Shown here: positions 9,082 through 59,463 of the stretch, piece by piece
Layout of the letters: each line of letters opens with the position of its first letter
Numbering within the stretch: position 1 is the stretch's first letter
Assembly (NCBI GenBank): GCA_938050045.1
Contig: CALLJS010000018.1
Span: 1 to 64,000 of the forward strand
Reading direction: 5' to 3'
Origin: an uncultured Sphingomonadaceae bacterium
GTDB taxonomy: Bacteria; Pseudomonadota; Alphaproteobacteria; Sphingomonadales; Sphingomonadaceae
Length of the DNA: 64,000 nt
The notes under the pieces: generated by a model
Database searches by the model: none
The model's input: the letters and a program-made list of their open reading frames with translations, nothing else
Told to the model about the DNA's origin: nothing
Translations under genes and position numbers: made by a program

Positions 9082-9092
9082 GGCGCAGATGA

Positions 9093-10259: not shown

Positions 10260-10361
10260 TATACGCAAAATATAAATGAGGCATTTATATCATTTAATAT
10301 ATAAATTTCATTTTTTCAGCTTTACAGCCAAGCAACTCATTATTAGAGGGATTTATCAACG

Positions 10362-10427
10362 CCCCAAGGGACTTTAACCGCAAGGCAAGTTTAACAATCA
10401 CTTAGCGATTATTGGAGGTCCCTTGAG
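10362..10427 (+). promoter_or_regulatory. speF-type leader RNA upstream of ornithine decarboxylase
   Basis: CAAGGGAC (10365-10372) pairs perfectly with GTCCCTTG (10418-10425), closing a long hairpin. Inside are a GNRA mini-hairpin CC-GCAA-GG in the ACTTTAACCGCAAGG stretch and an imperfect stem around AATC-ACTTAGC-GATT. The Shine-Dalgarno GGAGG (10414-10418) sits at the base of the closing stem, which ends two bases before the TTG start. The speF motif is a known structured leader of alphaproteobacterial ornithine decarboxylase genes. Position and stem placement match it, but I could not run a covariance model. The 5' limit is uncertain; an AT-rich hairpin at 10270-10290 may belong to it. Confidence 0.72.
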
Positions 10428-11627
10428 TTGCACAAATATAATGATGCTAAGGCTCTAATAGAAGCCATACAGCCAGACGAATCCGTTACTTTAGTCCGCC
10501 CCCATGCTGCAAAGCGAGCGGCGCGCTATTTTGTCGATAATTTTCCAGGCAAATCGCTCTATGCGGTCAAAGCAAACCCCTCGCCCGATTTACTCCAAAT
10601 CTTGTGGGATGAAGGCATTCATCATTTTGATGTCGCATCGATTGGCGAAGTGCGTTTGGTCAAATCGCTCCTGCCCGATGCTATTTTATGTTTCATGCAT
10701 CCCGTTAAATCTGAGAGGATGATAAAAGAAGCTTATTTCAAACATGGTGTTCGTACTTTTTCGCTCGATACAATGGAAGAGCTAGAGAAAATCAAACGCG
10801 CTACCGATAATGCGGATGATCTAAACCTGTGCGTACGCATCAGAGTATCCAGTAAATATGCCGAAATTAGCTTAGCCGCTAAATTTGGTGCAGACCCCGC
10901 CGAAATTGCCGATTTATTGATGGCCGCTCGGCAATGCTCGTTACAATTAGGGATATGTTTTCATGTTGGCAGTCAAGCGATGACCCCTATCGCCTATAGC
11001 GATGCGATGGACCATGTTAGAGCCGCCATTATAGAAGCCTCTATCACCGTTGACATAATCAATGTAGGCGGCGGCTTTCCATCCTCTTACCCAGGAATGG
11101 AACCGCCCTCTTTAGCGCATTATTTTGATGTTATTGACCGCAGCTTTGAAGACCTGCCTATAAGCTATAGCGCCGAATTATGGTGCGAACCAGGCCGCGC
11201 ATTATGTGCAGAATATGCATCTTTAATCGTGAAAGTTGAAAAACGGCGCGGTAGCGAATTATTCATAAATGATGGTGCTTATGGTGCCTTATTTGATGCA
11301 GCCCATATTGGGTGGCGTTTCCCCGTTCAACATATTGCCCAGCGGCCCGCAGATGCTGCTGGTGTAGAGCCCTTTAGCTTTTATGGGCCTACTTGTGATG
11401 ATATGGATCATATGACAGGGCCGTTTCATTTGCCCAATATTATTGCGGTCGGTGATTATATCGAAATTGGCCTATTAGGAGCTTATGGCTGCGCAATGCG
11501 CTCTGGCTTTAATGGATTTGAAGCTGGTGATATATATATAGTGCATGATGACCCTATGACCACATTATATGGCAATCAAAACGATGTTAATCGCCATAAT
11601 GTTATATCCATACAGCATAGCCAATAA
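10428..11627 (+). CDS. Ornithine/lysine decarboxylase, alanine-racemase-fold
   Basis: Makes putrescine (or cadaverine) from ornithine (or lysine) with PLP, supplying the diamine for the two upstream enzymes. The 399-residue protein carries the PLP lysine in LYAVKANPSPDLLQILW near residue 44, the glycine loop INVGGGFPSSYPGMEPPS near 208, CEPGRALCAEYA near 248, and the catalytic cysteine in FYGPTCDDMDHM near 323. The start is TTG at 10428, chosen because GGAGG lies nine bases upstream and no ATG fits. Translation is probably controlled by the structured leader at 10362-10427. No distinct terminator is evident after the gene. Confidence 0.92.
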   Translation: MHKYNDAKALIEAIQPDESVTLVRPHAAKRAARYFVDNFPGKSLYAVKANPSPDLLQILWDEGIHHFDVASIGEVRLVKSLLPDAILCFMHPVKSERMIKEAYFKHGVRTFSLDTMEELEKIKRATDNADDLNLCVRIRVSSKYAEISLAAKFGADPAEIADLLMAARQCSLQLGICFHVGSQAMTPIAYSDAMDHVRAAIIEASITVDIINVGGGFPSSYPGMEPPSLAHYFDVIDRSFEDLPISYSAELWCEPGRALCAEYASLIVKVEKRRGSELFINDGAYGALFDAAHIGWRFPVQHIAQRPADAAGVEPFSFYGPTCDDMDHMTGPFHLPNIIAVGDYIEIGLLGAYGCAMRSGFNGFEAGDIYIVHDDPMTTLYGNQNDVNRHNVISIQHSQ

Positions 11628-44070: not shown

Positions 44071-45257
44071 TGGCTGATTTATTGCCCTTAGCAGATGCGC
44101 AAAAAGCATTAATCGGCGCAGCGCATAGATTAGACACAGAAATAATAGATTTAGACGCCGCATTGGGGCGCATAACCGCGCAAAATATCCTCTCCCTGCG
44201 AAATCAGCCTGCTGCTGATATGTCGGCTATGGATGGTTATGCTATTCGCTATGACACAAATATCACATCATGGGACATCACTGGCGAATGTAAGGCAGGT
44301 ACGCCTGCTTGCGATGCTATTCAATCCGCACAAGCAGCGCGCATATTCACGGGTGCATTATTACCAGAAGGCAGCGATACTGTCATCATTCAAGAAAATA
44401 GCGTGCGCCATAATAGCGTCCTAACCCATAGAACAGATACACCGATAATAAGGGGGCAAAATATCAGGCGCAAAGGCAGCGATTTTAGCAAAAATGATAT
44501 AATCATTGAAGCCGGAACGCTTATTAATCCTGCGCATATTGGATATATAGCAGCCGCTGGATATGATAAAATTTGCGTTTATCGCATAGCGAAAATTGCC
44601 ATCATATCAACGGGCGATGAACTGCGCGCAGCAGGAGTGGATTGCGACCTTTATCAAATCCCCGCCAGCAATGGGCCTATGATTGCAGCATTGTTGAATG
44701 ATTATGACATCATCTATAATGACATTATAAATGATAATTTACAGAGCATTAAAACCATCATTTCCAATCATCACCATTGTGATGTGATTGTCACCATTGG
44801 CGGGGCATCTGTGGGCCATCATGATCTTATTTTGCCCGCATTAGAGGATTTGGGTGCTGATATAAGCTTTATGAAAGCGGCGATTAAACCAGGCAAACCC
44901 ATAATGGCTGGACGATTGGGACGCAGCCATATCATTGCTCTGCCTGGCAATCCATCAAGCGCCTATGTAACGGCTCTCTTATTTTTGCTACCGCTTTTAC
45001 GCTATATCAGCGGTTTAGATGATTATCTACCGCCTGTCCGCAAATCTATATCGACAGAGGCATTAGCCCAAATAGGAGCCCGTGCTGAATTTGTGCGCGC
45101 GATAGAAAGCGGCGGCACAATCACAGCTTTGGCATCGCAAGATAGTGGTAAATTATCAACATTAGCAGCCGCCAATGCGCTCATCATTAGAAATAGTGAG
45201 AGCGAGGCAGTGAAAGCTGGTGACGATATATATTATATACCAATCAATCATTTATGA
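44070..45257 (+). CDS. moeA: Molybdopterin molybdenumtransferase
   Basis: Inserts molybdate into adenylated molybdopterin. About 395 residues. MSAMDGYAIRYD near residue 49, RIFTGALLPEGSDTVIIQE near 90, IISTGDELRAAG near 177 and VTIGGASVGHHDLI near 240 are family motifs. IIALPGNPSSAYVTALLFLLPLL near 290 marks the catalytic domain. I start at the ATG coupled to the moaC stop (44070). An in-frame ATG four codons earlier (44058) is too close to GGGAG and less likely. Confidence 0.95.
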   Translation: MADLLPLADAQKALIGAAHRLDTEIIDLDAALGRITAQNILSLRNQPAADMSAMDGYAIRYDTNITSWDITGECKAGTPACDAIQSAQAARIFTGALLPEGSDTVIIQENSVRHNSVLTHRTDTPIIRGQNIRRKGSDFSKNDIIIEAGTLINPAHIGYIAAAGYDKICVYRIAKIAIISTGDELRAAGVDCDLYQIPASNGPMIAALLNDYDIIYNDIINDNLQSIKTIISNHHHCDVIVTIGGASVGHHDLILPALEDLGADISFMKAAIKPGKPIMAGRLGRSHIIALPGNPSSAYVTALLFLLPLLRYISGLDDYLPPVRKSISTEALAQIGARAEFVRAIESGGTITALASQDSGKLSTLAAANALIIRNSESEAVKAGDDIYYIPINHL

Positions 45258-45274
45258 TTAATGCTGAAAATAGC

Positions 45275-45317
45275 TTGACATAACCCCTTTTGTTTCTTAA
45301 TTGTTCTTTATTCGTTC
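45275..45317 (+). promoter_or_regulatory. lexA promoter with LexA operator
   Basis: A near-ideal -35 TTGACA (45275-45280) is followed after 17 bp by TAATTG (45298-45303). GTTC (45303-45306), seven bases, then GTTC (45314-45317) is exactly the direct-repeat SOS box of alphaproteobacteria, GTTC-N7-GTTC. It overlaps the transcription start, so LexA should repress its own gene. It also means lexA has a promoter of its own despite lying behind the trp-moa run. Confidence 0.85.
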
Positions 45318-45336
45318 CGATAAAAGGACACATAAA

Positions 45337-46035
45337 ATGCTGACTGCAAAACAATTTGAACTATTAAATTTCATTCACCAACGCTTAGAAGAAACTGGTA
45401 TTTCTCCTTCTTTCGAAGAAATGAAAGATGCGCTCGGGCTAAAGTCGAAATCTGGTATTCACAGGCTTATTTCAGCTCTTGAGGAACGTAGTTTTCTGCG
45501 GCGCCTTCCCAATCGCGCCCGCGCTTTAGAAGTGATAAAATTACCCGATATGGGCCAAGATGCGCCTGTCAATAACAATCAAAGCGTCTTGGAAGCTATG
45601 CAGAAAAAAAGCCCTGACCTTCCGCACAATGCTATGCCTGTGGCGGCCAATGATGTCATTGAAATACCTTTGCATGGTAAAATTGCGGCGGGTGTGCCTA
45701 TCGAAGCGATGGAAGGCAATAACAGCCTTGCTGTCCCGCTTGCCTTGCTCGGATCTGGCGAACATTATGCCCTAGAGGTATCGGGCGATTCCATGATCGA
45801 AGCAGGCATTTTTGACGGCGACTATGCTTTAATTCAGCGCACGCAAATCGCGCGCGATGGTGAAATTGTTGTTGCCTTGGTGCGCAATGAAGAGGCCACC
45901 CTCAAATATTTGCGCAAAAATGGCCCAAATATCCAATTGGATCCCGCCAATGCAGCCTATGAACCGCAAGTTTATCCGGCGGAGGAAGTCACGATTCAAG
46001 GGAAATTGGCTGGCTTGCTGCGCCGCTACCATTGA
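45337..46035 (+). CDS. lexA: LexA repressor
   Basis: SOS regulator that cleaves itself on contact with RecA filaments. The protein is 232 residues. The winged-helix DNA-binding domain is at 1-65 ([35 protein letters not shown]). The cleavage site Ala-Gly is in [15 protein letters not shown] near residue 120. The catalytic serine is in [19 protein letters not shown] near 153 and the lysine in EATLKYLRK near 191. The start at ATG 45337 has AAAGGA seven bases upstream; the open frame to 45301 would run through the operator and is rejected. Confidence 0.96.
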
Positions 46036-46072
46036 GCCTTGCTGCGCCGCCATCTTTGAATAGCGCACAATC

Positions 46073-46109
46073 ATAAAATAATGCTAACACGCGCTAAGCA
46101 TTATTTTAT
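46073..46109. terminator. Bidirectional terminator between lexA and comEC
   Basis: ATAAAATAATGCT (46073-46085) and AGCATTATTTTAT (46097-46109) form a perfect 13-bp stem with an 11-base loop. The AT-rich outer stem doubles as T tracts in both directions, a classic convergent-gene terminator. It lies 38 bp after lexA and 20 bp after the end of comEC. Confidence 0.8.
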
Positions 46110-46128
46110 TCTTTCCAAAGCCAGCTTA

Positions 46129-48363
46129 TCACTTTTGAGGAGGATAGGTTGTCGGTCGATTTTCATTATATTCTGACCATGGCAAATGACCATTTTCAGA
46201 CGCAACATTTCTAATCCTGCCCGATGATAAATATATTGCAACACCGCCGCTTTTATCATGAAAGGCGCGATCAATTTTCAATCTTTTGGGTTTGCAATCA
46301 TAAGGTAAATAGCGGTTACTAATGGCAATATCGACTCTTTTGCACGCAGCGGCTAGCTCAAGACGCGGCACAAAATGGTTGGATGTCGTCGCTAATATTG
46401 TCCATGGGCCTTGCTCGTTATTCCTTTGCTTGCTGCCCCCTTGCTTGCTGCCCCTTTGCTCGCTCTCGCTTTGCTTGCTGGCCCCTTGCTCTTTTTCCAA
46501 TGCGATGATGCAAATATCTGGCGAACATTGCGCCCCTGGCCAATTGGCTATATCGGATGCTTCTCCGTCAAAGCCTGCATTTTCATTGAGCAATTCGCGT
46601 ATATATCTTCCAGCTCTGGTGCGCAGCAATAGCATCGCATCCTCTTTGCCCCTACCGCCTGCTTTTTTGACTGCTAAATGCTGGCCATCGCCTGTTATCA
46701 CTATATCGGGTGATGGTGTACGCAGCAAGAAGAAGAATGCTATTGCAAGCGGCCCAAGAGCGAGCAATTTATAATTAGATTTAACGATCATTATCGCCAG
46801 CCCTGATATTATTATAATCGCATAATGCGTTATATCTATGGTTGCGACGGTTGTAATGGCGGCGGGTAAATTGCTCACATAATGCGCTAATGTTAATATG
46901 ATTTCGATGGATTGACCGCATATCCACCAAAAAAATGTCCCTAATCCAACCATATCAAAAACAAAGGCTGCAATCCCCGATGGAATGATAATGAAAGTGG
47001 TCAATGGAATCGCTAACATATTAGCTAATGCGCCATAAATTCCTGTTTTTTGAAAATGATAGAGCGCAATGGGCGCGAGGGCTATTTCGATAAAAAGCCC
47101 CGTAATAAACAGCGATAGTAAAAACCGCCCTAATGCTTTGAGCCATATCTCTTCTCTTCGGTGGACAAGTTTTTGCATAAATGTCGTTTCATGCAATGTG
47201 ATAATCGTGGCAACCGCTGCAAAACTTAATTGAAAGCTAGGCCCCACCAATACTTCGGGCATGATGAGCAGGATGAACAAAGCCCCAAATGCCACCAATC
47301 GCAATGTAAGAGGGTCGCGCCCCATTATCAAGGCTGCGAGCACCAAGCATGCTGCGATACAAGCTCTTATCGTTGGCACCTGCATGCCCGTTAAAATGGT
47401 ATAAAATATTGCAATTAAAGCCGCGATTGAGGCCGCGAAAATCGGCACTCTATGGCGCAACGCAAAAGATGGAAATAAGGATAATATTTTAGCGATGATA
47501 AAAAAACTCATCATCACAACAGCCGTTACATGCAGGCCGCTAATGGCGAGCAAGTGAGCCATACCGCTGCGGCGCATCGCCTCTGCATCTTCCATAGCAA
47601 TTGCGCCTCTGTCGCCCGATGCTAATGTCGCACCAATAGCCCCTGCCCTTCCTTTAATTTTCGCTCTTACCTGCGTGGCTATTTGGTCGCGAATATTGGA
47701 TATAGTGACATTGGATTGCGCAGCATTGACCATTGTCACCTCACCCAAAGCAGACCCTGTCGCCCCCAAACTATCAAACCAAGCGCGCTGTGCAAAGTCA
47801 TAAGCACCCGGAACAGCAGGCCCAGCAGGCGGTAATAACCTAACCTTTGCCTTTAGGATTGAACCTATTGTAAAAGCATCATCATATTGCGCATTAGATA
47901 AATTTATGCGTATTTTTTCGGGAAGCGACTGCTGGCCTTCGGTCTCTAAAATTAGGCGCACAATCGAGCGTGCTGGCAATTTTTCTATTCTGTCAATTCG
48001 ACCATATATATGGCCAATCCAGGGTTTTTCTAATATAGGGGCCGCTATAGAATAAGATCGTATCGATATAGCCGACCAACCAATAATGACCGATAATCCA
48101 ACCATCAACGTGACAAGGTTTAAGCGAAATTTAAGCTTTGCGGATAAACCCACTGCAATCAAAATTAAAGCGGGAAATATGATATATGGCCAATTTTCTG
48201 ACCCTAGAGTAAACCAAGCGGCAATGCCCATACCAACGCAAATTGGGATATAAAGCGGTAATTGTGTTGCTTCTTTTTCAAGCCCTAATTCTATCTGTGA
48301 CAGCAATAAGCGAGACTGTGCCAATGCATTTTTTTGCCAATCATGAACAGAAAAATATATCAT
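46129..48363 (-). CDS. comEC: ComEC/Rec2 family competence membrane protein
   Basis: Inner-membrane channel for single-stranded DNA uptake. The 744-residue protein has N-terminal helices plus the DUF4131-like soluble domain (about 120-215), then the competence domain with many transmembrane helices. HLLAISGLHVTAVVMMSFF near residue 270 and MQVPTIRACIAACLVLAALIMGRDPLTLRL near 320-350 are the signatures. The C-terminal region (from about 560) is a short soluble remnant. It lacks a recognisable complete metallo-beta-lactamase domain and contains a pentapeptide repeat insert encoded by 46411-46485. dprA at 2.7 kb is the other competence gene. Confidence 0.9.
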   Translation of the reverse strand: MIYFSVHDWQKNALAQSRLLLSQIELGLEKEATQLPLYIPICVGMGIAAWFTLGSENWPYIIFPALILIAVGLSAKLKFRLNLVTLMVGLSVIIGWSAISIRSYSIAAPILEKPWIGHIYGRIDRIEKLPARSIVRLILETEGQQSLPEKIRINLSNAQYDDAFTIGSILKAKVRLLPPAGPAVPGAYDFAQRAWFDSLGATGSALGEVTMVNAAQSNVTISNIRDQIATQVRAKIKGRAGAIGATLASGDRGAIAMEDAEAMRRSGMAHLLAISGLHVTAVVMMSFFIIAKILSLFPSFALRHRVPIFAASIAALIAIFYTILTGMQVPTIRACIAACLVLAALIMGRDPLTLRLVAFGALFILLIMPEVLVGPSFQLSFAAVATIITLHETTFMQKLVHRREEIWLKALGRFLLSLFITGLFIEIALAPIALYHFQKTGIYGALANMLAIPLTTFIIIPSGIAAFVFDMVGLGTFFWWICGQSIEIILTLAHYVSNLPAAITTVATIDITHYAIIIISGLAIMIVKSNYKLLALGPLAIAFFFLLRTPSPDIVITGDGQHLAVKKAGGRGKEDAMLLLRTRAGRYIRELLNENAGFDGEASDIANWPGAQCSPDICIIALEKEQGASKQSESEQRGSKQGGSKQRNNEQGPWTILATTSNHFVPRLELAAACKRVDIAISNRYLPYDCKPKRLKIDRAFHDKSGGVAIYLSSGRIRNVASENGHLPWSEYNENRPTTYPPQK
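46411..46485. repeat. Five tandem 15-bp repeats inside comEC
   Basis: Units start at 46411, 46426, 46441, 46456 and 46471 with consensus TTGCTTGCTGCCCCT; a partial sixth follows. On the coding strand they give pentapeptides of the form (G/R)(G/A)SK Q: GASKQ, SESEQ, RGSKQ, GGSKQ, RNNEQ. The 15-bp unit keeps the reading frame, so copy-number change lengthens or shortens a hydrophilic linker without breaking the gene. Confidence 0.85.
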
Positions 48364-48686
48364 AAAGTGCTTTTATAGTAATAAACCAAAGTCGGCTATG
48401 CGTCATTTTCACCTTATATTATGTTAATATTTGCTGGTAAATATTGAGTTTTACCTTGACCTTATGGCCAAATTCTTCCATGTAAAATAAGCATCAAATG
48501 ACGATCTTCCCCAAGATAAATATCGTAAATGATGGATATATTATTCATAGATATATGATTATTATGCAGCCACTTCATGCTATTAAGCGGCAAAGCAAAA
48601 AATGGTAGAGATTGCCCTGATGGGTCTAAAATTTTGAATTAACATTTGCGAGAGTGATACATCTCTCGTTTATCTGGAGATTATGT
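48364..48686. other. Intergenic region between divergent comEC and gltA
   Basis: This 323-bp gap contains no convincing gene. Two dyads stand out. AATATTT-GCTGGT-AAATATT near 48427 could be a protein-binding site. CGAGAG (48649-48654) with CTCTCG (48663-48668) forms a 6-bp hairpin eight bases before the gltA Shine-Dalgarno GGAG (48676-48679). In related sphingomonads I recall gltX lying between comEC and gltA; it is not here. Confidence 0.5.
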
Positions 48687-49973
48687 ATGTCGAATGAAAC
48701 AGCCAAAATGTCATTAGGTGGCAAAGACTATGAATTCCCTGTCTTAAAAGCAACAACTGGCCCAGATGTAATTGATATAAGAAAATTATACGCGCAAACC
48801 AATAATTTCACACTTGATCCAGGCTTCACCTCAACGGCTAGCTGTGAATCCAATCTTACCTTTATCGATGGCGGTGAAGGCGTTTTGCTGCACGGTGGTT
48901 ATCCCATTGGGCAATTGGCCGAGCATTCTTCTTTTATGGAAACATCTTATTTGCTGCTCAATGGTACTTTGCCGAGCAAAAACGAATTAAAAGAATTTAA
49001 GACGACCATCACAAACCATACGATGTTGCACGAACAATTGGCAAAATTCTTTAGCGGATTTCGCCGCGATGCCCACCCTATGGCTATTATGTGTGGTGTC
49101 GTAGGTGCGCTCAGTGCATTTTACCATGATAGCACCGATATTAATGATCCAGAGCATCGCAGAATTTCTAGCCACCGCCTCATTGCCAAAATGCCAACAA
49201 TCGCGGCCATGGCTTATAAATATTCTATCGGCCAACCCTTTGTATATCCAGATAATACGCTTTCTTATCCTGGTAATTTCTTGCGCATGACATTTGGCGT
49301 GCCCGCAGAAGAATATGAGGTTGATCCTGTTATTGAACGCGCTATGGATCGTATTTTCATTTTACATGCCGACCATGAACAAAATGCATCCACATCAACC
49401 GTGCGTTTGGCGGGATCTTCTGGTGCGAACCCATTTGCCTGTATTGCTGCAGGTATCGCTTGTTTGTGGGGTCCTGCTCATGGTGGTGCTAATGAAGCGG
49501 CGCTCAATATGTTGCGTGAAATTGGCACTGTTGATCGTATTCCAGAATATATTGCCCGCGCAAAAGATAAGAATGACCCTTTCCGTTTGATGGGCTTTGG
49601 TCATCGCGTGTATAAAAATTACGATCCGCGTGCGACTGTTATGCAAAAAACGGCTGACGAAGTTTTGAGCAAATTAGGGGTTACCGATCCTATTTTTGAT
49701 GTGGCCAGAGAATTAGAGCAAATTGCTCTTAACGACCCTTATTTTGTAGAGAAGAAACTCTATCCCAATGTTGATTTTTATTCTGGGATAATTTTATCCG
49801 CAATCGGTTTCCCAACCGAAATGTTTACTGTGCTATTTGCACTAGCGCGCACCGTAGGTTGGGTTGCACAATGGAATGAAATGATTTCCGATCCTGGCCA
49901 AAAAATTGGCCGGCCGCGCCAACTCTACACTGGCCCAGCGCAGCGCGATTATATTCCTATTGATAAACGCTAA
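48687..49973 (+). CDS. gltA: Citrate synthase (type II)
   Basis: Condenses oxaloacetate and acetyl-CoA at the start of the TCA cycle. The 428-residue protein shows [28 protein letters not shown] near residue 48, catalytic histidines in [20 protein letters not shown] near 225 and [12 protein letters not shown] near 263, and catalytic aspartate near 360 ([13 protein letters not shown]). [13 protein letters not shown] is the family signature. I start at ATG 48687 with GGAG seven bases upstream rather than at the open-frame start at 48654. Confidence 0.96.
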
Positions 49974-49990
49974 ATCGCAAGCATAATAAT

Positions 49991-50019
49991 AAGGGGGTAT
50001 CTGATGATGCCCCTTTTAT
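49991..50019. terminator. Terminator after gltA, overlapping the end of the convergent gene
   Basis: AAGGGG (49991-49996) pairs with CCCCTT (50010-50015), followed by TTATT. It ends gltA transcription. The stop codon of the convergent kinase-like gene lies at 50016-50018, so that gene's transcripts may also fold the hairpin. Confidence 0.7.
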
Positions 50020-51404
50020 TCCCTTGGCAACACAAGCGTAAAACAAGTGCCCCTGCCAATATCGCTGTCAATCATAAGGTCGCCGCCCATAGCTTTTGCG
50101 AGACGATGAGATATATATAATCCAAGGCCGCTTCCGCCGTCCCCGGTGCGCCCCAATCTCTCAAATTTTTCAAATATTTTATCCTGATGCTGTTTATCTA
50201 TGCCAGGGCCCTCATCATGCACCGAGAGAAACGCCTTATCGCCTTCATAACCAATAGCAATTTTTACGCTTGTTCCTGTTGGCGAATAGCGAATTGCATT
50301 GGTCAATATATTAATCCCAATTTGCAATACACGCCTAAATTCGCCAACGGCATTAACAATATTATCCTCATCTGGCATAATAATCTCAATGGATTTTTCA
50401 TTGGCTTTCAGCGCCAATAAACCCGTCAATCTATTGGCAATATCTTGTAATTCCAAATCATCTTTAGCGATATTAAAATCTGGTTTTTCAATAGCCTCTA
50501 AATCACCGAGATCGTCAATTATTTCAATCAAATGGCGCGCGGCTCTTGCAATATCTTTTGCATAATTGGCATAATTTTCTCTGATAGGCCCATTCAATTT
50601 ACTACCTATAGTATCTGCATTCGCGATGATACGGCCCAAGGGCTGCCGTATTGCAGGGGCTAATTGAGAAGCCACCATTGTTTGATAAATGACATCGCTA
50701 TCTTTTTGAGATGCGGTATCTTGCGTTTTATCGCTCGGCTTATCGGCGATAAATTCATTGTTCAACGGGCTTATATAGCATTCATAGCCCAAAAATTCAT
50801 CCCGATCGTTCAATCGGGCTATCGCAGAAAAATCATAAAGCTGATTAAATTGAGATATGTTGACTATCGCATTCTCAACCATATCATGACGCTCAAATGC
50901 TTGCGCGATTAATGCGCTCATATCTGTATCAAGATCCAATATATCAAATATATATTTGCCCAAAAATTTACTAAATGTCTCTGTGTTAAGCTTTCCAGCT
51001 TGGAATGAAATAATATCATGATTCCTATCGGTCAAAAATAATATATCTTCTCCCAAATCATTGAACATAAGAGCATCGCCTTTGGGGGCTTCTAATTGTT
51101 CAATCGGTTTTTCATTCCAAGATAATATCGACAATATAGCAATATCATTCTTTAATTCGCTATCTACCCATAATGATATGTCAAAACCATCATCGGCGAC
51201 CTGAACCATTCTTGATAATGGCAAGCCAATTTTATGCGTTAATTGAGCTATTTGCGCCAATGCAGGTATCGCTATTATAGCTCCATCTCTGCCGCCTGCT
51301 TGGACGTGCAATCTGCGTAATGCAGGATCAGCAAAAAGCAGTTTCCCGTCCGCATCGACATGCGCTGCTATAATGTCAGGGGAGGAATTATCGATATTAT
51401 CCAT
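50016..51404 (-). CDS. Histidine kinase-like protein without the phosphoacceptor histidine
   Basis: A soluble 462-residue protein with no transmembrane segment. The N-terminal 215 residues look like one or two PAS-like sensor regions. A dimerisation helix pair follows (about 240-305; GPIRENYANYAKDIARAARHLIEIIDDLGDLEAIE would be its second helix, in pieces). In place of the canonical S-H-E-L-R-x-P-L stands APAIRQPL at 249-256, so proline 250 occupies the histidine position. The ATPase domain is intact: N box with INILTNAIRYSP near 364-375, G1 HDEGPGIDKQ near 396, F box FEKFERLG, and G2 GSGLGLYISHRL near 424. It probably binds ATP but cannot autophosphorylate in the usual way. It overlaps the upstream DUF2336-like gene by eight bases. 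Confidence 0.82.
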   Translation of the reverse strand: MDNIDNSSPDIIAAHVDADGKLLFADPALRRLHVQAGGRDGAIIAIPALAQIAQLTHKIGLPLSRMVQVADDGFDISLWVDSELKNDIAILSILSWNEKPIEQLEAPKGDALMFNDLGEDILFLTDRNHDIISFQAGKLNTETFSKFLGKYIFDILDLDTDMSALIAQAFERHDMVENAIVNISQFNQLYDFSAIARLNDRDEFLGYECYISPLNNEFIADKPSDKTQDTASQKDSDVIYQTMVASQLAPAIRQPLGRIIANADTIGSKLNGPIRENYANYAKDIARAARHLIEIIDDLGDLEAIEKPDFNIAKDDLELQDIANRLTGLLALKANEKSIEIIMPDEDNIVNAVGEFRRVLQIGINILTNAIRYSPTGTSVKIAIGYEGDKAFLSVHDEGPGIDKQHQDKIFEKFERLGRTGDGGSGLGLYISHRLAKAMGGDLMIDSDIGRGTCFTLVLPRE

Positions 51405-52380
51405 GCGCCCCCCCCATCAAATCAGACCATTTGCGCAAATGCTGTAAAGCTGTTTGGGGGCTAATCGAGATATATTCATCAGAAATTTGAGCCAATATAG
51501 AGCTATTCATGGCCTCTTGTTTCTCAAATATAATGGCTAGATTTTCCAGTGCTAATTTTATATCCATATCCAGCGCTCGGAATAATATAGCGCATAATAA
51601 GGGCGATCTATCGGTGAGTATGCTCAAAATAGCCGTCCGATTGAGCGATGTTTGCTGCTCTAATAAAGCAATAAATACAGGCGCATTTATGGGAGTATAT
51701 GTCCAAAAATCTTCTATATTAAATTTAGAATCATTATGCAGTAAATATATAAATTTACCAGAGGCTGCGGCTATTGTTTCCGCCTCATTATAACGCCCTA
51801 ACCAATCTTGGGTCATATCCATTAATGTGGGATCAATAGCCCCGTCAATAATCTCAAATGTTGCCAATACCCGCCACGTCAGTTGATGCAAATTCTCTGG
51901 CGAAAGTTCATAAAAATTCCCAAGTTTAAGAGATTTTGCGCGACTTAATCCCAATGACAAAGTTTGCAAACATTCTTTAATTACTCCAGAAAATTTTGTG
52001 ACATTGGCTTCATAACGCCAATTATCCGATATATGCTCGCCATCATTGCTGTTGGATATTAAATTTTGAAAGCGATAAAGCGATAATATTTCGTCTAAAA
52101 CCAATGGATCATTCAACAGGCCCGATTCCATCAATATCGGATAAGATTTTGATCTTTCTGATATTTTATCATGTAATTGAGCATGTTGTAAAATTGAGCA
52201 TTCAATATTGAATATTATTTTATACAGGCTATTTTTTACATTCGATAATAGAAATTCGTCGATAGTAAAGCTGCTCTGAGGAAAAATAAGGTGCGGTAAT
52301 GTTTGACGTGCAGCGGCAATGCTGCGTGCTCGCAGCATCGCATTTTCCACAAAAGATGTTGGCTCAAAATACTGAGACAC
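51397..52380 (-). CDS. DUF2336-like alpha-helical protein
   Basis: A 327-residue, almost entirely alpha-helical soluble protein. Overall pattern and neighbours fit the DUF2336 family of alphaproteobacteria, whose role is unknown. Repeated helical pairs in the C-terminal half (for example LLEQQTSLNRTAILSILTDR and LLCAILFRALDMDIKLALEN) are HEAT- or Hpt-like in spacing. No catalytic motif is visible. The gene ends in a G8 tract (51408-51415) that also forms the purine-rich site before the kinase-like gene; the coding ends overlap by eight bases. Loss of one G would fuse the two frames. Family assignment is tentative. Confidence 0.6.
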   Translation of the reverse strand: MSQYFEPTSFVENAMLRARSIAAARQTLPHLIFPQSSFTIDEFLLSNVKNSLYKIIFNIECSILQHAQLHDKISERSKSYPILMESGLLNDPLVLDEILSLYRFQNLISNSNDGEHISDNWRYEANVTKFSGVIKECLQTLSLGLSRAKSLKLGNFYELSPENLHQLTWRVLATFEIIDGAIDPTLMDMTQDWLGRYNEAETIAAASGKFIYLLHNDSKFNIEDFWTYTPINAPVFIALLEQQTSLNRTAILSILTDRSPLLCAILFRALDMDIKLALENLAIIFEKQEAMNSSILAQISDEYISISPQTALQHLRKWSDLMGGAHG

Positions 52381-52484
52381 AAAATTTCCTATAATTACCT
52401 ATCACTTCATTAGAGCAGTAAAGTTAATTTCGTTTTAAGCTTGATAAGAAGAAATAATGATGATGGTTTATGAATAGTTGAACA

Positions 52485-53660
52485 TCAAGGCCTCTGAGAG
52501 CCCAACAAGATTATCCCGCCAAATATCCATAGCGCATAGAGTATAGCTATTGCCATTATTGCATATATTTGAACGCCCAATAATGTGGCCAATATCAAGA
52601 CGCACAATATATCTGAGAATGAAAAAACCAAACGATCATAATGCGAATGAAAATTGAGCTCTCTGATAGAATATCCTAATAAAAATATAATGATCGCACC
52701 AACTATGCTCCACAAATCATACCCATGATAGGCTGTGATAAATATGATAAGCAATAGGCTCATATTTATGATTATATGCGCAAATAAAGTATCGGTTGCG
52801 GGCTTTATATGTTGTTCAACTTGTTTGAAAAACGCACTAAAACACCCAATTATGCCCAATATATAAGATGTAATATTGAAATTAAATACTGCAAAAACAA
52901 TAGCCAATGCAAAAAATAATAAATAATTATATTTAATAATATAGCCAAGAGCAGGTTGAGTTTCTCTCTTTTTCCATACATAGCGCATCATATAATTTGC
53001 AAGTGCGCAAAATAGGGTATTTTCTAAAAAACCTCGCTTATTCGTCGTTTCTAGAGAAAGTCTAATATAGTCTTCATTTACAATATTAGCGTCCGATTGT
53101 TCGGTGATTTTTGACAATGATGATGGCGCATATTCTATGACTTTTAATGCATAATCATGCTGCAGAGCCAAACGCAGCAAAGTCGAATGAATAGCCGAAT
53201 CTTCGGGTAAGCTCTCAACCGAGGATAATAATTCTCCGTTCAGCTTTGCCAAACCGCTCCATCGATACTTCAAATCTATCAATTCGAATTTTGATAATTT
53301 TTCATCATTTTCAAATACCACTAATTCTGGAGCGTTCGCATTCATTATATCCTCAATATGCTTATCGCTGCTCCATAGTCCATCTGATACCATCAAAAAT
53401 ATATCATCGCGACCAAAGCTATCGCTCAAGGCAGCTAAACGGCTAATAAATTCAATCTCTATCCCCTCGCCCCTCAGATATGTCGCGACATGAAGCGCAC
53501 GGGCGTCCACTTTTTCTATTGCGACAATAAAATCTTTTATCCCAAAATTTCTAAGCTGAACAATCTGATGGTATAAAATAGGCTCCCCAGCTACTTTTAG
53601 CAGCGCATTGGTGGTTTCATCATAAGCCTGTTCAATCATTAACAAAGCAATGCTGACCAA
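52485..53660 (-). CDS. Degenerate nucleotidyltransferase domain fused to a membrane domain
   Basis: Residues 1-200 resemble a sugar-phosphate nucleotidyltransferase: NALLKVAGEPILYHQIVQL corresponds to the LPVAGKPLI region and DIFLMVSDGLW to the metal-site strand. The N-terminal glycine-rich GGxGTR loop is missing. Residues about 205-235 (NKRGFLENTLFCALANYMMRYVWKK in part) resemble the linker of nucleotidyltransferase-CDP-alcohol phosphotransferase fusions. After this come roughly six transmembrane helices (245-390) with no D-G-x2-A-R-x8-G-x3-D-x3-D motif. So both catalytic signatures appear lost. It lies between the Hpt-like and DUF2336-like genes on the same strand. The function is unknown. 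Confidence 0.6.
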   Translation of the reverse strand: MVSIALLMIEQAYDETTNALLKVAGEPILYHQIVQLRNFGIKDFIVAIEKVDARALHVATYLRGEGIEIEFISRLAALSDSFGRDDIFLMVSDGLWSSDKHIEDIMNANAPELVVFENDEKLSKFELIDLKYRWSGLAKLNGELLSSVESLPEDSAIHSTLLRLALQHDYALKVIEYAPSSLSKITEQSDANIVNEDYIRLSLETTNKRGFLENTLFCALANYMMRYVWKKRETQPALGYIIKYNYLLFFALAIVFAVFNFNITSYILGIIGCFSAFFKQVEQHIKPATDTLFAHIIINMSLLLIIFITAYHGYDLWSIVGAIIIFLLGYSIRELNFHSHYDRLVFSFSDILCVLILATLLGVQIYAIMAIAILYALWIFGGIILLGSQRP

Positions 53661-53761
53661 TGCTCTAATCCTTCAATCGCCTATAATATTCATTCAATAC
53701 CATGGTTATTGGGAAATTGGAATTTTATTCTTTTGGTTTTAGGGGCAAGCCCAAGAGCGAC

Positions 53762-53859
53762 TGATGCCCTATGCTTGATGCCCTCTGCTTGATGCTCTGT
53801 GCTTGATGCCCTCTGCTTGATGTTCTGTGCTTGATGCCATCTGCTTGATGTTCTGTGCT
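53762..53859. repeat. Seven tandem 14-bp repeats (minisatellite)
   Basis: Seven 14-bp units, consensus TGATGCCCTCTGCT, run from 53762, with a partial eighth reaching the Hpt-like gene's stop codon (53866-53868). Units alternate between TGATGCCCTCTGCT-like and TGATG(C/T)TCTGTGCT-like, giving a 28-bp higher-order period, as expected when pairs of units duplicated. It lies between the Hpt-like gene and the nucleotidyltransferase-like gene. Confidence 0.9.
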
Positions 53860-53865
53860 TGATGC

Positions 53866-54168
53866 TCAAGAATCTCTAATCTCATTTAATGCTGTGCGCA
53901 ATTCACGGATGATAACGGGATCGCCTGGCGCACCAGTAACCGCTATATGCGCTAAATCCTTAATATCCTCTGCACCAAAACTTGCTGCTAAGCTCTGCAA
54001 TCTCCAGGCGGAATATTGCCAATTAGCATCGCAGCGCGAGCGACTAAGCAAGTCAATTTGGCGATCAGCACTCTCAAAAAATGCAACGCGAAGCTCTGAC
54101 ATTAGAACAATATCATCGCCAGCAGCCTCTTTAATAGCTGTTGTAAAAGAACCATAATCTGCGGACAT
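53866..54168 (-). CDS. Hpt-like protein with tryptophan in place of the phosphohistidine
   Basis: A 100-residue, fully helical protein resembling a histidine phosphotransfer domain. GDDIVLMSELRVAFFESADRQ is the first helix pair. AWRLQSLAASFGAEDIKDLA near residues 54-73 aligns with the A-H-x-L-K-G-S-A-x-x-F-G-A core. Tryptophan 55 sits where the phosphorylated histidine should be and glutamine 58 replaces the lysine. It is therefore probably a binding module rather than a phosphocarrier. The start at 54168 is 231 bp from the divergent coiled-coil gene. The stop codon touches a 14-bp minisatellite. Confidence 0.72.
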   Translation of the reverse strand: MSADYGSFTTAIKEAAGDDIVLMSELRVAFFESADRQIDLLSRSRCDANWQYSAWRLQSLAASFGAEDIKDLAHIAVTGAPGDPVIIRELRTALNEIRDS

Positions 54169-54399
54169 ATTGAAAGAAATAGCGTCAACATGTTAACTTT
54201 ACGTTTCTAAGCGCGAAAAATATGGTAAACAGATAATATGACTGGGGTAAAGAAAAATATTATTGAGAAATCAATTCCCAAAGGAAATGGGACAGAGGAT
54301 TATCTTTTTACAGATAAATCAATATCTTATAATAATAAGGAGAAACCAGCCTATCGTAAAGGTATCGATTTTCTCTCTTATAATAATGGGGAGAATTTT

Positions 54400-56733
54400 A
54401 TGGCTTATGCACCAGAAAAAGCCGTTCCTTTGAACACTGATCGCCATTTAGACGCTGTTCAAGATGGTTTAATCGAAGATAAAACCCCTGAAAATGATGA
54501 TAAAAACCCTGAAAATGAAGATATTGAGTCAGAGGATTATCATGCAGAAGAAAGCGAAGCAGAAGCAAATGAATGGGACTATTATGACGATGATAATGAC
54601 AGCAGATCGATGCTCGCTTATGTGATACCAACTATCTTTATTATCCTTGCTCTAAGCTGGAGCGCATTTTTCATTGTCTCAAATCTTGATATTTTAACGC
54701 CAACTATCACCCTATCGCAAATTTCATCGCTCATCATTAGCTGGACATCACCCACAATTTTAATCGCGCTTGGCTGGCTATTGTTCATGCGCAGCAGCAC
54801 AGCAGAGGCGTTGCGCTTTGGCGATGTTGCAAACAATCTTCGAAGCGAGGCCTATAATGTTGAGGGAAAAATGCGCGAGGTTAATCAAGAAATAGCTCTG
54901 GCCAGAGACTTTCTCGCTCAATATAGCCAAGACCTTGAGCATATTGGCCGCCACACCGCCGATAATATTCTAAATGCATCGCAGAAATTAGAAACATCGC
55001 TGCATGATAGCACTGAAAAAGCCGAAATTTTAGAAAAGGTTAGTGCATCAACCAATAAGAATTTGGAATTATTGCGCAAAAACCTTCCTGTTGTGAACAG
55101 CGCCGCCAAACAAGCCACCAATTTAATTGGCAAGACTGGAATGGAAGCGGTTGAGCAAGTTCGTTCTTTGGAGCTTGCCATTAAAGATAGTAGCGAAGCC
55201 AGCGTCAATAATCGCCAAGAGCTAGAGAAATTATCCTTACAAAACAAGCAAGTTTCAGATGATATTTTGGCTCAAACAAAAGATGTTAAAGCGTTTAGCG
55301 AAGCGATGTTAGATAAAACCAAGCATGAAATAGCTGACATTGCCGCAACTATTAAATCAGAATATAATAATTTTGATCAATCTGTCAGCGAAACGAGCAA
55401 AAAACTAGACACCCAAAGCAAAGAGATTACCGATCATCTAAATCAAAATGTCGAAAAACTATCGAGTGCTATGCAAAACTTAATCGATAGTAATCATGAA
55501 GAAGATAATCATATCAATGATATGATGGAAAAAATCCAAGAACATATTGATAATAGCCAAAAGCAAATCGATGTCATTAGCGATAAGGCAACCGATCAAG
55601 CAGCCAAAATGGCCTTTGCCTTAAAGGCCTTAAGAGAAAATAGCGACAATGTGGGACAAGGCCTCTCCGATAATTATACGCAAGCAGAAATGCTGATAGA
55701 ACGCTCTGAAAAATTATTATTGCTATTAGATAGCAATTCGCGTGAATTAGAGGAAACCGTGCCAACCTCTATCAAACGGCTTGATGACTTATTTAAGCTT
55801 GTTGAAAATCGTTTCAAATCTACATTTTCCAATATTAAAAAAATATCAGATCATAGCGATAAGATTCACAAGAAAAATACTGCGATAGAGCGACAATTAT
55901 CGGTTTCAAAAGGGCTAATAGGGGCTTTGCTGGAAAAGCAAAATGATGGCGCCGATTTGAATAATGACAAGATAAGCAAAATATTATCGACCCTGCACGA
56001 GAGTAAAGCGGCGTTAGAAGATATAACGCAAAATGCTAATGGCGCATTTACGGAACAGATTAAAAATGTGAACAATCAAATAATGGAAAGCTTGGAATTT
56101 TCTCGCGAAACAATTAGCAAAAAAATAGATTTTAGTTCTCAAAAAATTGCCGATAATGGTAGTGCTATCATCAAAGAAACCATCGACAAGCAAGTCGCTG
56201 CCATTGAGAATAATCTGCAAATATCGCTCGATGTTCATGTCAAAGCGGCCAGCGAAAATGTCGCAAAATTGCAATCGCAATTGATGGTGATAGAAGAAAT
56301 GACCGATAATTTGGAAAAACGCCTCGAGGAAAACTCTCAAGAATTTTCTAATGTGGGCGAGGAGAGTTTCTCGCGTCAAATGGCACTGCTAACAGAATCG
56401 CTCAATTCAACAGCGATTGATGTCGCAAAAATTATATCCAATGATGTCACAGACACAGCTTGGGCATCCTATCTCAAAGGCGATAGGGGCGTATTTACGC
56501 GCCGCGCTGTCAAATTACTGACCGCTGGCGAGGCAAGATTAATAGCCACGCATTATGATGAGGATATGGAATTTCGCGATCATGTGAACCGATATATCCA
56601 TGATTTTGAAGCCATGATGCGCGTCTTACTCAGCACCCGTGATGGCAATGCTATTGGCGTTACAATCTTATCCTCTGACGTTGGTAAATTATATGTTGCG
56701 CTGGCACAGGCCATCGAACGTTTGCGCCATTAA
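54400..56733 (+). CDS. Large coiled-coil membrane protein of unknown function
   Basis: About 777 residues. An acidic, disordered N-terminal 70 residues precede two transmembrane helices (VIPTIFIILALSWSAFFIV and IISWTSPTILIALGWLLFM). About 480 residues of coiled coil with repeated glutamine, asparagine, serine and aspartate heptads follow, then a conserved-looking globular end (YLKGDRGVFTRRAVKLLTAGEARLI). The layout suggests a membrane-anchored filament, like chemoreceptor or RmuC-type coiled coils, but no signalling tip is recognisable. The open frame extends to 54238; I choose ATG 54400 because GGGGAG lies six bases upstream and MAY-type starts fit related proteins as I recall them. Confidence 0.75.
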   Translation: MAYAPEKAVPLNTDRHLDAVQDGLIEDKTPENDDKNPENEDIESEDYHAEESEAEANEWDYYDDDNDSRSMLAYVIPTIFIILALSWSAFFIVSNLDILTPTITLSQISSLIISWTSPTILIALGWLLFMRSSTAEALRFGDVANNLRSEAYNVEGKMREVNQEIALARDFLAQYSQDLEHIGRHTADNILNASQKLETSLHDSTEKAEILEKVSASTNKNLELLRKNLPVVNSAAKQATNLIGKTGMEAVEQVRSLELAIKDSSEASVNNRQELEKLSLQNKQVSDDILAQTKDVKAFSEAMLDKTKHEIADIAATIKSEYNNFDQSVSETSKKLDTQSKEITDHLNQNVEKLSSAMQNLIDSNHEEDNHINDMMEKIQEHIDNSQKQIDVISDKATDQAAKMAFALKALRENSDNVGQGLSDNYTQAEMLIERSEKLLLLLDSNSRELEETVPTSIKRLDDLFKLVENRFKSTFSNIKKISDHSDKIHKKNTAIERQLSVSKGLIGALLEKQNDGADLNNDKISKILSTLHESKAALEDITQNANGAFTEQIKNVNNQIMESLEFSRETISKKIDFSSQKIADNGSAIIKETIDKQVAAIENNLQISLDVHVKAASENVAKLQSQLMVIEEMTDNLEKRLEENSQEFSNVGEESFSRQMALLTESLNSTAIDVAKIISNDVTDTAWASYLKGDRGVFTRRAVKLLTAGEARLIATHYDEDMEFRDHVNRYIHDFEAMMRVLLSTRDGNAIGVTILSSDVGKLYVALAQAIERLRH

Positions 56734-56783
56734 ATAGCAGGGATGTAACTTTTCAGCTTAATTTTATACTCTGGAATCAGCCC

Positions 56784-57044
56784 CTAGCTATCCCATGCAA
56801 ATGTTTCAGCCGTAATCCAACCAAATATATAATTGGCGTAAAATAATGCGAATAATGCACTCGCTAATAGAGTTGCTCTTACTAAAACTATCTTGGGCCT
56901 AAAATTAGCAGGCGCGCTATCCGCCTGACCTTTAATTTTGGCTTCACCCATTTCGTCATGCGTTCGTATTCCGATGGGCAACATGATAAATGCTGAAATG
57001 ACCCAAAATAATATATAAATAGCAATGATAGATGATATTTGCAT
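56784..57044 (-). CDS. DUF1467 family membrane protein
   Basis: An 86-residue protein with two transmembrane helices (about 4-24 and 56-76) around the family core MLPIGIRTHDEMGEAKIKGQADSAP (shown in part). It is a conserved alphaproteobacterial family usually encoded right after the rnj gene. Here its start overlaps the rnj stop by one base, so they are translated together. No function is known. Confidence 0.88.
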   Translation of the reverse strand: MQISSIIAIYILFWVISAFIMLPIGIRTHDEMGEAKIKGQADSAPANFRPKIVLVRATLLASALFALFYANYIFGWITAETFAWDS

Positions 57045-58681
57045 TACAGTTCCAAGATCAAAACATTAACAATCGGTTTTTTACCTGTCCAGCGGTGGGC
57101 ACATCGCCTAACGGCCAAACGTACATTTTCGCGCAATTTCTCTATATCAGAAGACCAATCACGCAGAGCGGCTATCGCATCTTCCTTAGCTTCTTCTAAA
57201 AATGCATCTAAATCTTCATCAAGCGGCACCCCATTACAATGAATATCGACTGTTTTTTCAGCGTCGCCATCTTTGTTTAAGGCTAGAGCCACAGATATTT
57301 GACCATGTATAGAAATTTTGCGGCGTTCATTCATAGTGCCGCCGTCGGCATCAATCAAAATATCACCATCCAGCACCAAACGCCCTGAACGTTCAAAGCC
57401 GATATGCTCTGGCCCATTGGGCGCGAGGCGAATAAGATCGCCATTTTTTTGCACAATTTGTTTTTCAATACCGCATTGCGCTCCAAACCGCGCTTGTTCT
57501 TTCATATGGCGCATTTCACCATGTACAGGCAGCAAAATTTTGGGCCTAATCCAATCATACATTTTAGCAAGCTCGGGCTTGCCTGGATGACCAGAGACAT
57601 GGATATGCGCCTGTTTTTCGGTAATCATATTGATATTTTGTTCGGCCAATGCATTTTGTATGCGGCCTATGGCCAATTCATTTCCTGGTATTTGCTTGGA
57701 TGAAAATATAACATAATCGCCTTCATCCAATGAAATTTTATGATTCTCGCCAGCAATTCTTGCCAAGGCAGCGCGAGGTTCACCCTGCCCGCCTGTGGCA
57801 ATAATCATAACCTCTGATCGCGGCAGTTGCATCGCTGTATGAAAATCAACGGTTTGCGGAAAATCTTTGAAATAGCCATTGTCTTTACCAATTTCGAGCA
57901 TTCTTTCGAGCGAGCGTCCCGCAACGCATAAAGTCCTATTGGTCGCTATGGCAACTTCGCCCAATGTTTGCAAACGGGCCGCGTTGGATGCAAAAGTCGT
58001 CACCAATATTCGGTTGTTCAGCTCCTTGGTAACGTCAATCAAATTGCGTTTCACATCCCCTTCGGAACCCGATTCCCTATCATTGAATATATTGGTGCTA
58101 TCACACACTAATGCTAAAATATCTTTATCGCCAATCGCACTAAGCTCTTCAGGAGACGTCGGCGTGCCAATCAAGGGTTCCTTATCAAGCTTCCAATCAC
58201 CGGTATGAAATATATTGCCATGCGGTGTCTCGATCAGCACGCCATTGCCTTCTGCAATGCTATGCGCAAGCGGCTTATAGCTGATCGTGAAGGGATCAAG
58301 CTCGACCACGCCGCCTTCATCAACCACATGCAAATCAAGGCTATTGATTCCATTTTCTTCCAATTTATGACGGATAAGAGATGCGGTAAATGCGGTGGCA
58401 TAGAGCGGCACATCTAATTCTTCGGCTAAATAGGGCAATGCGCCAATATGATCCTCATGGCCGTGGGTTAATATGATGCCCAACAGGTCATCGGCATTTT
58501 TTTCGATAAATTCTAAATCGGGAAGAACCAGTTCGACGCCAGGGTAATAAGGATCAGAAAAGCTAATCCCCATATCGACCATCAACCATTTACCATTACA
58601 GCAATATAGGTTCACATTCATGCCAATTTCACCCGAACCGCCAAGCGCGAGGAACAATAATTCATTTTTGGATTCGTTCAT
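57044..58681 (-). CDS. rnj: Ribonuclease J
   Basis: Metallo-beta-lactamase-fold ribonuclease with endo- and 5'-exonuclease activity in RNA maturation. The 545-residue protein starts LLFLALGGSGEIGMNVNLY. It has the zinc motif GIILTHGHEDHIGALPYLAE near residue 72, HTGDWKLDKEP near 165, the beta-CASP region with PVHGEMRHMKEQARFG near 388, and HVSGHPGKPELAKM. Length matches the family. It lies 20 bp after coaX on the same strand. Confidence 0.95.
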   Translation of the reverse strand: MNESKNELLFLALGGSGEIGMNVNLYCCNGKWLMVDMGISFSDPYYPGVELVLPDLEFIEKNADDLLGIILTHGHEDHIGALPYLAEELDVPLYATAFTASLIRHKLEENGINSLDLHVVDEGGVVELDPFTISYKPLAHSIAEGNGVLIETPHGNIFHTGDWKLDKEPLIGTPTSPEELSAIGDKDILALVCDSTNIFNDRESGSEGDVKRNLIDVTKELNNRILVTTFASNAARLQTLGEVAIATNRTLCVAGRSLERMLEIGKDNGYFKDFPQTVDFHTAMQLPRSEVMIIATGGQGEPRAALARIAGENHKISLDEGDYVIFSSKQIPGNELAIGRIQNALAEQNINMITEKQAHIHVSGHPGKPELAKMYDWIRPKILLPVHGEMRHMKEQARFGAQCGIEKQIVQKNGDLIRLAPNGPEHIGFERSGRLVLDGDILIDADGGTMNERRKISIHGQISVALALNKDGDAEKTVDIHCNGVPLDEDLDAFLEEAKEDAIAALRDWSSDIEKLRENVRLAVRRCAHRWTGKKPIVNVLILEL

Positions 58682-58701
58682 GAAATCCTCTTAGCCTATT
58701 T

Positions 58702-59463
58702 TTAGGGCTGGCGGTTATATAAAATGGCTAAACCTTTCAAAGTTAGGTTAAAATCAAGTGTATCGAACACAGTATCATCGCGTTCAAACAGAGCAGATAA
58801 GCCTCCGGTTGCGATTACCGTCAGCGGTTTATCAATTTCAGCCTTCATTCTATTTACCAATCCTTCTATGAGCGCAAAATAACCCCAATAGAGGCCTGTC
58901 AAAATTTGTTCTTCGGTATTTTTACCTATCACATTTTTATGCAGGGGTCGTTTTAATTCAATATAAGGTAATTGCGCAGCGGCGGCGGCCAGTGCATCGC
59001 GCGATAAAGCCATGCCAGCGGCGATTAAACCGCCATTATAGCTGCCATCATCCCCAATATGATCGATAGTGGTTGCCGTTCCTAAGCTCACAATGATTAA
59101 ATCGCCGTCATATTCTTCATGCGCGCCAATAGCATTTACAAGCCTATCGCTGCCTACACTTTCAGGATTATCTACATTAACCGCGATACCCCAATTTACC
59201 GCTCCATTGCGGGCAATGATAGGGTCAACCCTAAAATAGTCGCGCCCCAGCTTTTGCAAATGCCCCAATATATTGGGAACCACGGTCGATATTATCATAG
59301 CGTCAACCGCTTCATATTCTCTCAAAAGCGGTAAAAGCCATTGCGCATAGGCATCGCTGGTGCGGTTTACATCGCTGTCAATTTTCCACCGCGCAATCAG
59401 AGTGCGGCCATCGAGCAGCGCAAATTTCACATTACTATTTCCGACATCAACCGCGAGCAACAT
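58702..59463 (-). CDS. coaX: Type III pantothenate kinase
   Basis: First step of coenzyme A synthesis, phosphorylating pantothenate. The 253-residue protein begins MLLAVDVGNSNVKFALLDG (phosphate-binding loop) and has VDNPESVGSDRLVNAIGAH near residue 98-115, IVSLGTATTIDHIGDDGSYNGGLIAAG near 125-150 and the C-terminal VIATGGLSALF. No classical PanK (CoaA) was seen in the window. It lies 13 bp after birA in the same transcript. Confidence 0.95.
   Translation of the reverse strand: MLLAVDVGNSNVKFALLDGRTLIARWKIDSDVNRTSDAYAQWLLPLLREYEAVDAMIISTVVPNILGHLQKLGRDYFRVDPIIARNGAVNWGIAVNVDNPESVGSDRLVNAIGAHEEYDGDLIIVSLGTATTIDHIGDDGSYNGGLIAAGMALSRDALAAAAAQLPYIELKRPLHKNVIGKNTEEQILTGLYWGYFALIEGLVNRMKAEIDKPLTVIATGGLSALFERDDTVFDTLDFNLTLKGLAILYNRQP

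Follow-up and report, generated by a model that had tools for sequence, protein, structure and literature searches.

Histidine-type pseudo-kinases and pseudo-Hpts have each been described singly. DivL of Caulobacter has a HisKA-type fold whose phosphoacceptor is replaced by Tyr550; it shows no autokinase activity in vitro and senses a phosphorylated receiver (PMC4211667). The plant pseudo-Hpt AHP6, whose conserved histidine is mutated, is described as a phosphorelay inhibitor (PMC3572949), and a pseudokinase variant of ChrS from Corynebacterium glutamicum is catalytically dead and still modulates its relay (PMC9491836). Here we describe a gene cluster in which a histidine kinase-like protein and an Hpt-like protein both lack the phosphoacceptor histidine. 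It lies in a window of 64,000 nucleotides (contig CALLJS010000018.1, assembly GCA_938050045.1) from an uncultured Sphingomonadaceae bacterium. Its unusual part is the staged loss within one locus. Our search of the literature found no description of such a staged loss, and nothing on this family under His-less kinases or Hpts in sphingomonads, with most subscription journals lying outside its coverage. We denote loci or sequences by L, genomes by G, genera by the code g and the window's family by f1, which we take to be the GTDB family Sphingomonadaceae.

On the minus strand, the cluster runs from the Hpt-like gene (54168-53866, 100 amino acids) through a gene for a nucleotidyltransferase-like membrane protein (the NTP protein, 53660-52485, 391 amino acids) and a DUF2336-like gene (52380-51397, 327 amino acids) to the kinase-like gene (51404-50016, 462 amino acids). 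Coordinates, order and strand are those that the initial annotation of the stretch had given. The kinase-like protein has a sensor-like N-terminal half, a His-less HisKA region and an intact HATPase_c domain (Pfam, 1.5e-25), and its HisKA match stays below threshold (24.5 of 26.9 bits). Its former H-box reads LAPAIRQPL (residues 249-256, APAIRQPL), with P250 at the His position and A251 at the next, usually acidic, position; counted from the gene start at 51404, codons 250-256 (PAIRQPL) occupy 50637..50657 on the minus strand.

We scored these sites in 192 distinct kinase sequences over residues 244-345, counting identical stretches once and omitting rows that scored below 120 bits or were rich in gaps. 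His followed by Glu was found in 31 sequences and was missing from 161, all of them from f1; a His-Glu or His-Asp pair was absent from 161/161 kinases of this clade and present in 31/31 canonical relatives. Residue 250 of the clade was most often proline (104), followed by R (14), A (10), D (7), E (5), K (4), T (4), G, N and H (3 each), Q (2), S and V (1 each). Residue 251 was acidic in none of the 161, so that Glu251 is gone throughout. Because both the histidine and its acidic neighbor are lost, the normal autokinase site is removed. Thr254, the usual phosphatase residue, is retained in 9 of the 161, so that a phosphatase function is unlikely as well. The ATP site, on the contrary, is almost invariant: N369, D397, G399, G426 and G428 are present in all 161 kinases, N365 in 160, and G401 and G424 in 158 each. 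A proline at the phosphoacceptor position next to intact ATP-binding boxes, as initially annotated, is thus confirmed for the window and, for the ATP residues, across the clade. Beside the old H-box, the clade has acquired conserved residues of its own: R258 (148/161, Ala in 31/31 canonical relatives), A261 (137/161, Gly in 30/31) and N262 (121/161, Phe in 31/31). From these substitutions we infer a reshaped DHp surface.

The kinase resembles DivL in combining a HisKA-type fold with a replaced phosphoacceptor, and the DivL chain 4q20 was the 13th best PDB match. It differs in two respects: the tyrosine is conserved in most DivL proteins, whereas the window's family has proline or many other residues, and DivL binds TNP-ATP weakly, whereas the ATP residues are kept here. 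No tyrosine occurs at residue 250 among the 161 clade kinases. This, together with the DUF2336 linkage of the nearest relatives, rules out a DivL orthologue. The ChrS variant arose by a laboratory frameshift in the ATP domain, the very part that the window kinase retains.

The second protein of interest, the pseudo-Hpt (53866..54168, minus strand), carries the motif AWRLQSLAASFGA, with W55 where histidine is expected. Its Pfam Hpt match (PF01627) is below threshold (16.8 of 24.6 bits), and the four His-bearing Hpt relatives that we scanned all exceed the gathering score. An AlphaFold2 model is helical with a predicted local distance difference test (pLDDT) score of 94.6. The best-ranked PDB structures were those of Hpt-type proteins, with template modeling (TM) scores of 0.66 for ShpA and 0.77 for HptB, none of them at E 0.001; the model thus predicts the helical bundle of an Hpt fold. 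A PHROGs search with this protein gave 0 matches. Among 132 distinct sequences having a residue 55, 123 lack His (M 31, L 29, Q 23, W 22, others 18) and nine have it. (L230 yielded no Hpt frame, the cut Hpt of L032 has no residue 55, and L023, a 58-residue fragment with His, repeats L305.) Six of the nine lie outside the main lineage: two in g85 (L204, L205), three in g6 (L211, L212, L228) and one in G040 (L229), although L229, a 37-bit match away from the kinase, may be non-orthologous. The tryptophan reported for the window stands, and 123/132 relatives also lack His. The alignment of orthologues that the initial annotation proposed supports it throughout the 161 kinases of the clade, yet the nine His-bearing Hpts make the second site less uniform. 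As with AHP6, we are dealing with an Hpt protein whose conserved histidine is replaced; AHP6 is, however, a plant protein described as a phosphorelay inhibitor, and the window's pseudo-Hpt is known here from sequence and model.

The two substitutions are not confined to the window. The nearest named relative, Sphingorhabdus sp. (Sphingomonadales, L031), has both of them and the same gene order. The pattern is thus beyond chance, because it is shared with L031 and recurs through the family; for the same reason, a sequencing or assembly error was rejected. A scan of the genome contigs with a single protein query found one locus. With gaps, the recurring order is RNase J, DUF1467, coiled-coil protein, Hpt, NTP, DUF2336, kinase, gltA, comEC and lexA. 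In 21 regions picked around a kinase match, NTP was present in 20, gltA in 20 and Hpt in 14 (one cut), and after profile searches DUF2336 adjoined the kinase in 20/21. We then counted matches in 199 f1 genomes (kinase E<=1e-55, DUF2336 1e-10, Hpt 1e-3) and obtained 159 for the kinase, 146 for DUF2336 and 131 for Hpt. Kinase and DUF2336 occurred together in 142 of the 159 kinase-bearing genomes (DUF2336 in 4/40 of the others), and kinase and Hpt in 125 (Hpt in 6/40), in tables that take no account of kinship. Seven of the 159 have a canonical kinase (G007, G012, G040, G052, G056, G085, G150), and three of the 40 carry a short His-less one (G005, G099, G161).

Canonical DUF2336-linked kinases, found in other families of the Sphingomonadales and in the f1 genera g85, g13, g41, g53, g57 and g8, share with the window the order DUF2336 then kinase and have homologous DHp and ATP domains. 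Those of g85 and g13 lie at the gltA locus, as in the window. Unlike the window kinase, these canonical kinases contain both His and Glu in their H-box, HE[L][RK]TPL. Several of them stand beside flgK or flgL, which are absent from the window cluster. We searched 26 genomes from other families of the order with a DUF2336 profile: DUF2336 was followed by a canonical kinase (SHELRTPL or SHELKTPL) in 25/26 loci, and the other, L172 (G200), lies at a contig end without a kinase. FlgL was upstream in 4/12 longer regions (L184, L185, L187, L188), with flgK as well in three, and the same flagellar neighbors were seen in the f1 genomes G040, G052 and G007 (L112, L202, L198), which suggests that the ancestral pair of DUF2336 and canonical kinase had a flagellar role.

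On the window's gltA side, a canonical kinase H-box is present in G085 and G150 (L204, L205) and in G012 (L200). L204 and L205, both of genus g85, also have a canonical Hpt, with the motif AHRLKGAAQ and a score above the Pfam cut-off. In g6 (G099, G161, G005), a canonical Hpt is combined with a short His-less kinase. An Hpt match exists in three of the seven canonical-kinase f1 genomes, with His in every case. In a kinase tree of 118 rows with the H-box columns removed, from which the completeness filter had dropped the canonical L198 (G007), a single switch between the canonical and the His-less state was required (support 89; FastTree 0.93). A single origin of the His-less kinase state is thus likely, rather than proven, because the branches are long and were flagged by a warning of the tool. 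Orthologues with canonical histidines at both sites, the pattern that the initial annotation had named as contrary to its proposal, do exist in g85, yet we read them as ancestral because they fall on the canonical side of this single change. The simplest history suggested by the sequences would start from a canonical pair, followed by loss in the kinase, loss in the Hpt and a few returns of the Hpt histidine; it is likely that the kinase lost its histidine first and the Hpt second.

We compared the window with L031 for the ratio of nonsynonymous to synonymous substitution rates (dN/dS), a measure taken from this one genome pair at a dS of about 1 to 1.7. The values were 0.125 for the kinase, 0.153 for DUF2336, 0.160 for NTP and 0.068 for Hpt; for comparison, the flanking gltA and coiled-coil genes gave 0.026 and 0.096. 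The cluster genes are under purifying selection. Low dN/dS combined with copies that are broken or lost elsewhere indicates that the module is held by selection in most lineages, not all. The expectation that sphingomonad relatives keep similar clusters for a function and not by decay thus holds for the recurrence and the low dN/dS, whereas 40/199 genomes without a kinase match and the broken copies limit it.

Taken together, these results are consistent with an ATP-binding pseudo-kinase and a mostly pseudo-Hpt protein that serve as scaffold or decoy for an active relay encoded elsewhere, a reading to which we give a probability of about 0.5. The ancestor would have been a canonical DUF2336-linked histidine kinase plus an Hpt protein. 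In the window's family, the kinase would have lost His and the adjoining Glu, once on the best tree, and the Hpt histidine would have been lost later in the main lineage, reappearing or surviving in three scattered genomes. The present kinase would not phosphorylate itself at the canonical site and would retain ATP binding and dimerization through its DHp helices; ATP-dependent binding is what we infer for it from its sequence, and phosphotransfer to a receiver or Hpt is predicted from the sequence to be absent in the window. Kinase and pseudo-Hpt would both work by protein binding, most likely by occupying the receiver domains, or the kinases, of an active phosphorelay in another part of the genome, and by analogy with DivL and AHP6 this binding may be gated by ATP in the kinase. 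The DUF2336 protein is a likely close partner of the kinase. Outside the window, the genome encodes possible live partners: a single protein of the ChpT family, three further Hpt domains that exceed the cut-off and 22 receiver domains. The ChpT-family gene (L242, L238; G000:C10:253018-253847) adjoins an 852-residue frame with an Hpt domain, and receivers follow about 3 kb on, perhaps in a chemotaxis locus.

A more elaborate version would be a two-protein bacterial pseudo-phosphorelay, built by sequential phosphoacceptor loss and a rebuilt kinase surface with binding that depends on the ATP state. The pseudo-Hpt would then be a soluble decoy relaying the kinase conformation to receivers, and a regained histidine would reconnect the Hpt to a live relay in a few species. 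We consider this version unlikely as a whole.

Several observations weigh against a binding module on a live relay. The cluster encodes no receiver domain. Residue 250, with proline in 104/161 and eleven other non-His residues, looks like a site of relaxed constraint, and in three kinases (L050, L127, L122) a lone His occupies this position, with Ser, Ser and Ala as the respective next residues (HSFK, HSFK, HALR). Hpt is missing from 7/21 cluster regions and from 34/159 kinase-bearing genomes. Three scattered genomes of the main family have His at the Hpt site (L262 in G179, L266 in G034, L305 in G127) in the motif AHRLKG or AHRLQG; their own kinases are His-less, and other members of their genera show L, R, W or V at the Hpt position. 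To judge from the motif, these three Hpts could carry phosphate. A tree of the 132 Hpts, built without position 55, has five state changes and long branches. Given these changes, the long branches and the scattered histidines, the kinase-first order is likely, not proven. Lastly, several lineages can dispense with the module, the window's genus among them: in this genus, the kinase gene of G137 is interrupted by an in-frame stop, and the same genome lacks DUF2336 and has a truncated Hpt; G192 has 43 kinase codons left beside an intact Hpt; and G329 has no kinase. Loci L032, L082 and L136 are places in the window's genus where the module is broken or absent.

The most probable alternative is that kinase and Hpt act apart, having lost their histidines separately and serving different partners, with the Hpt perhaps still passing phosphate for another kinase in some species. 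It accommodates the genomes without an Hpt, the three main-family Hpts with His, the non-simultaneous losses and the location of the Hpt far from the kinase in G186, G122 and G011; yet the two genes co-occur strongly at a common locus, and g85 has both in canonical form at one locus. We consider separate action less likely than not. What these data do remove is a clean joint loss: the initial annotation took both halves of a phosphorelay to have lost the same residue together, and both substitutions are indeed real and recur through the family, but simple joint loss is not supported because g6 and the main-family genomes G179, G034 and G127 combine a His-bearing Hpt with a His-less kinase.

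The kinase domain could also still be catalytic with ATP, acting on a residue in another protein, for instance the DUF2336 protein or the Hpt. Ser kinases with a GHKL fold exist (SpoIIAB, PDK), the nucleotide-binding residues are retained, and three family members carry a histidine at Hpt position 55. However, the acidic residue next to the histidine is lost in 161/161 kinases, and the columns conserved (>=85%) solely in the His-less clade hold no new His, Asp, Ser, Thr or Tyr, which makes continued catalysis improbable.

Ongoing decay, in which an ex-phosphorelay without function is being removed while its leftover copies drift, would account for the broken or absent copies in G137, G192 and G329, for the 40/199 genomes without a kinase match and for the variable residues at both former His sites. 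It fits poorly with the dN/dS of 0.07-0.15 for kinase, Hpt and DUF2336 in the one pair compared, with the near-invariant ATP site and newly conserved residues of 161 kinases and with frames that stay open across many genera, and we think it distinctly improbable. Finally, a nearby histidine, H291, present in 160/161 His-less kinases, is very improbable as a substitute phosphoacceptor because 29/31 canonical relatives with a normal H-box carry it too.

The two remaining proteins are less clearly classified. The DUF2336-like product (51397..52380, minus strand) is all-helical, and its gene has an 8-bp overlap with the kinase gene. The window protein matched no Pfam family at E<=1 and did not reach the gathering score of DUF2336 (PF10098). 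Three of five syntenic orthologues scanned matched DUF2336, one of them (L051) above the cut-off, and the protein of L204 scored 178.6 bits, also above it. The model of the window protein has a moderate pLDDT of 77.3, with no PDB match better than E 0.5. A literature search with most subscription journals outside its coverage found no paper on DUF2336, and the locus offers a lead on this family.

The NTP protein (52485..53660, minus strand), a conserved neighbor with degenerate nucleotidyltransferase-like and membrane domains, has weak nucleotidyltransferase similarity. Its gene is still beside gltA in 8/20 loci that have no kinase there (L132-L134, L136-L138, L146, L151), where DUF2336 is also gone. 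In L204, the interval between NTP and DUF2336 (7949-11256) holds genes that Pfam likens to inositol-1-phosphate synthase, MobA-like nucleotidyltransferase and Wzi. An envelope-related locus, since stripped down, may have given rise to the window cluster. In L205 and L201, frames starting with similar sequence lie at places matching the L204 insert genes.

The cluster is flanked by a divergently transcribed gene for an 831-residue coiled-coil protein (54238..56733, plus strand), a conserved neighbor outside the claimed mechanism, and on the opposite side by the syntenic anchor gltA, encoding citrate synthase (48654..49973, plus strand). A 28-bp tandem repeat (3.7 copies, 94% match, 53762-53865) separates the Hpt-like gene from the NTP gene, and a 15-bp tandem repeat (4.3 copies, 46426-46490) lies within the comEC coding region. 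Rfam had 0 matches in window positions 45000-59000. A promoter scan gave 26 sites versus 17.6 expected, and a terminator scan 3 versus 3.3 expected.

In most of a bacterial family, then, both halves of one former relay lack the phosphoacceptor. The living relatives show the stages: both sites canonical in g85, loss in the kinase only in g6 and the three scattered genomes, and loss at both sites, as in the window. Because these stages survive, the proposed change from phosphorelay to binding module would be testable step by step in ordinary laboratory sphingomonads.

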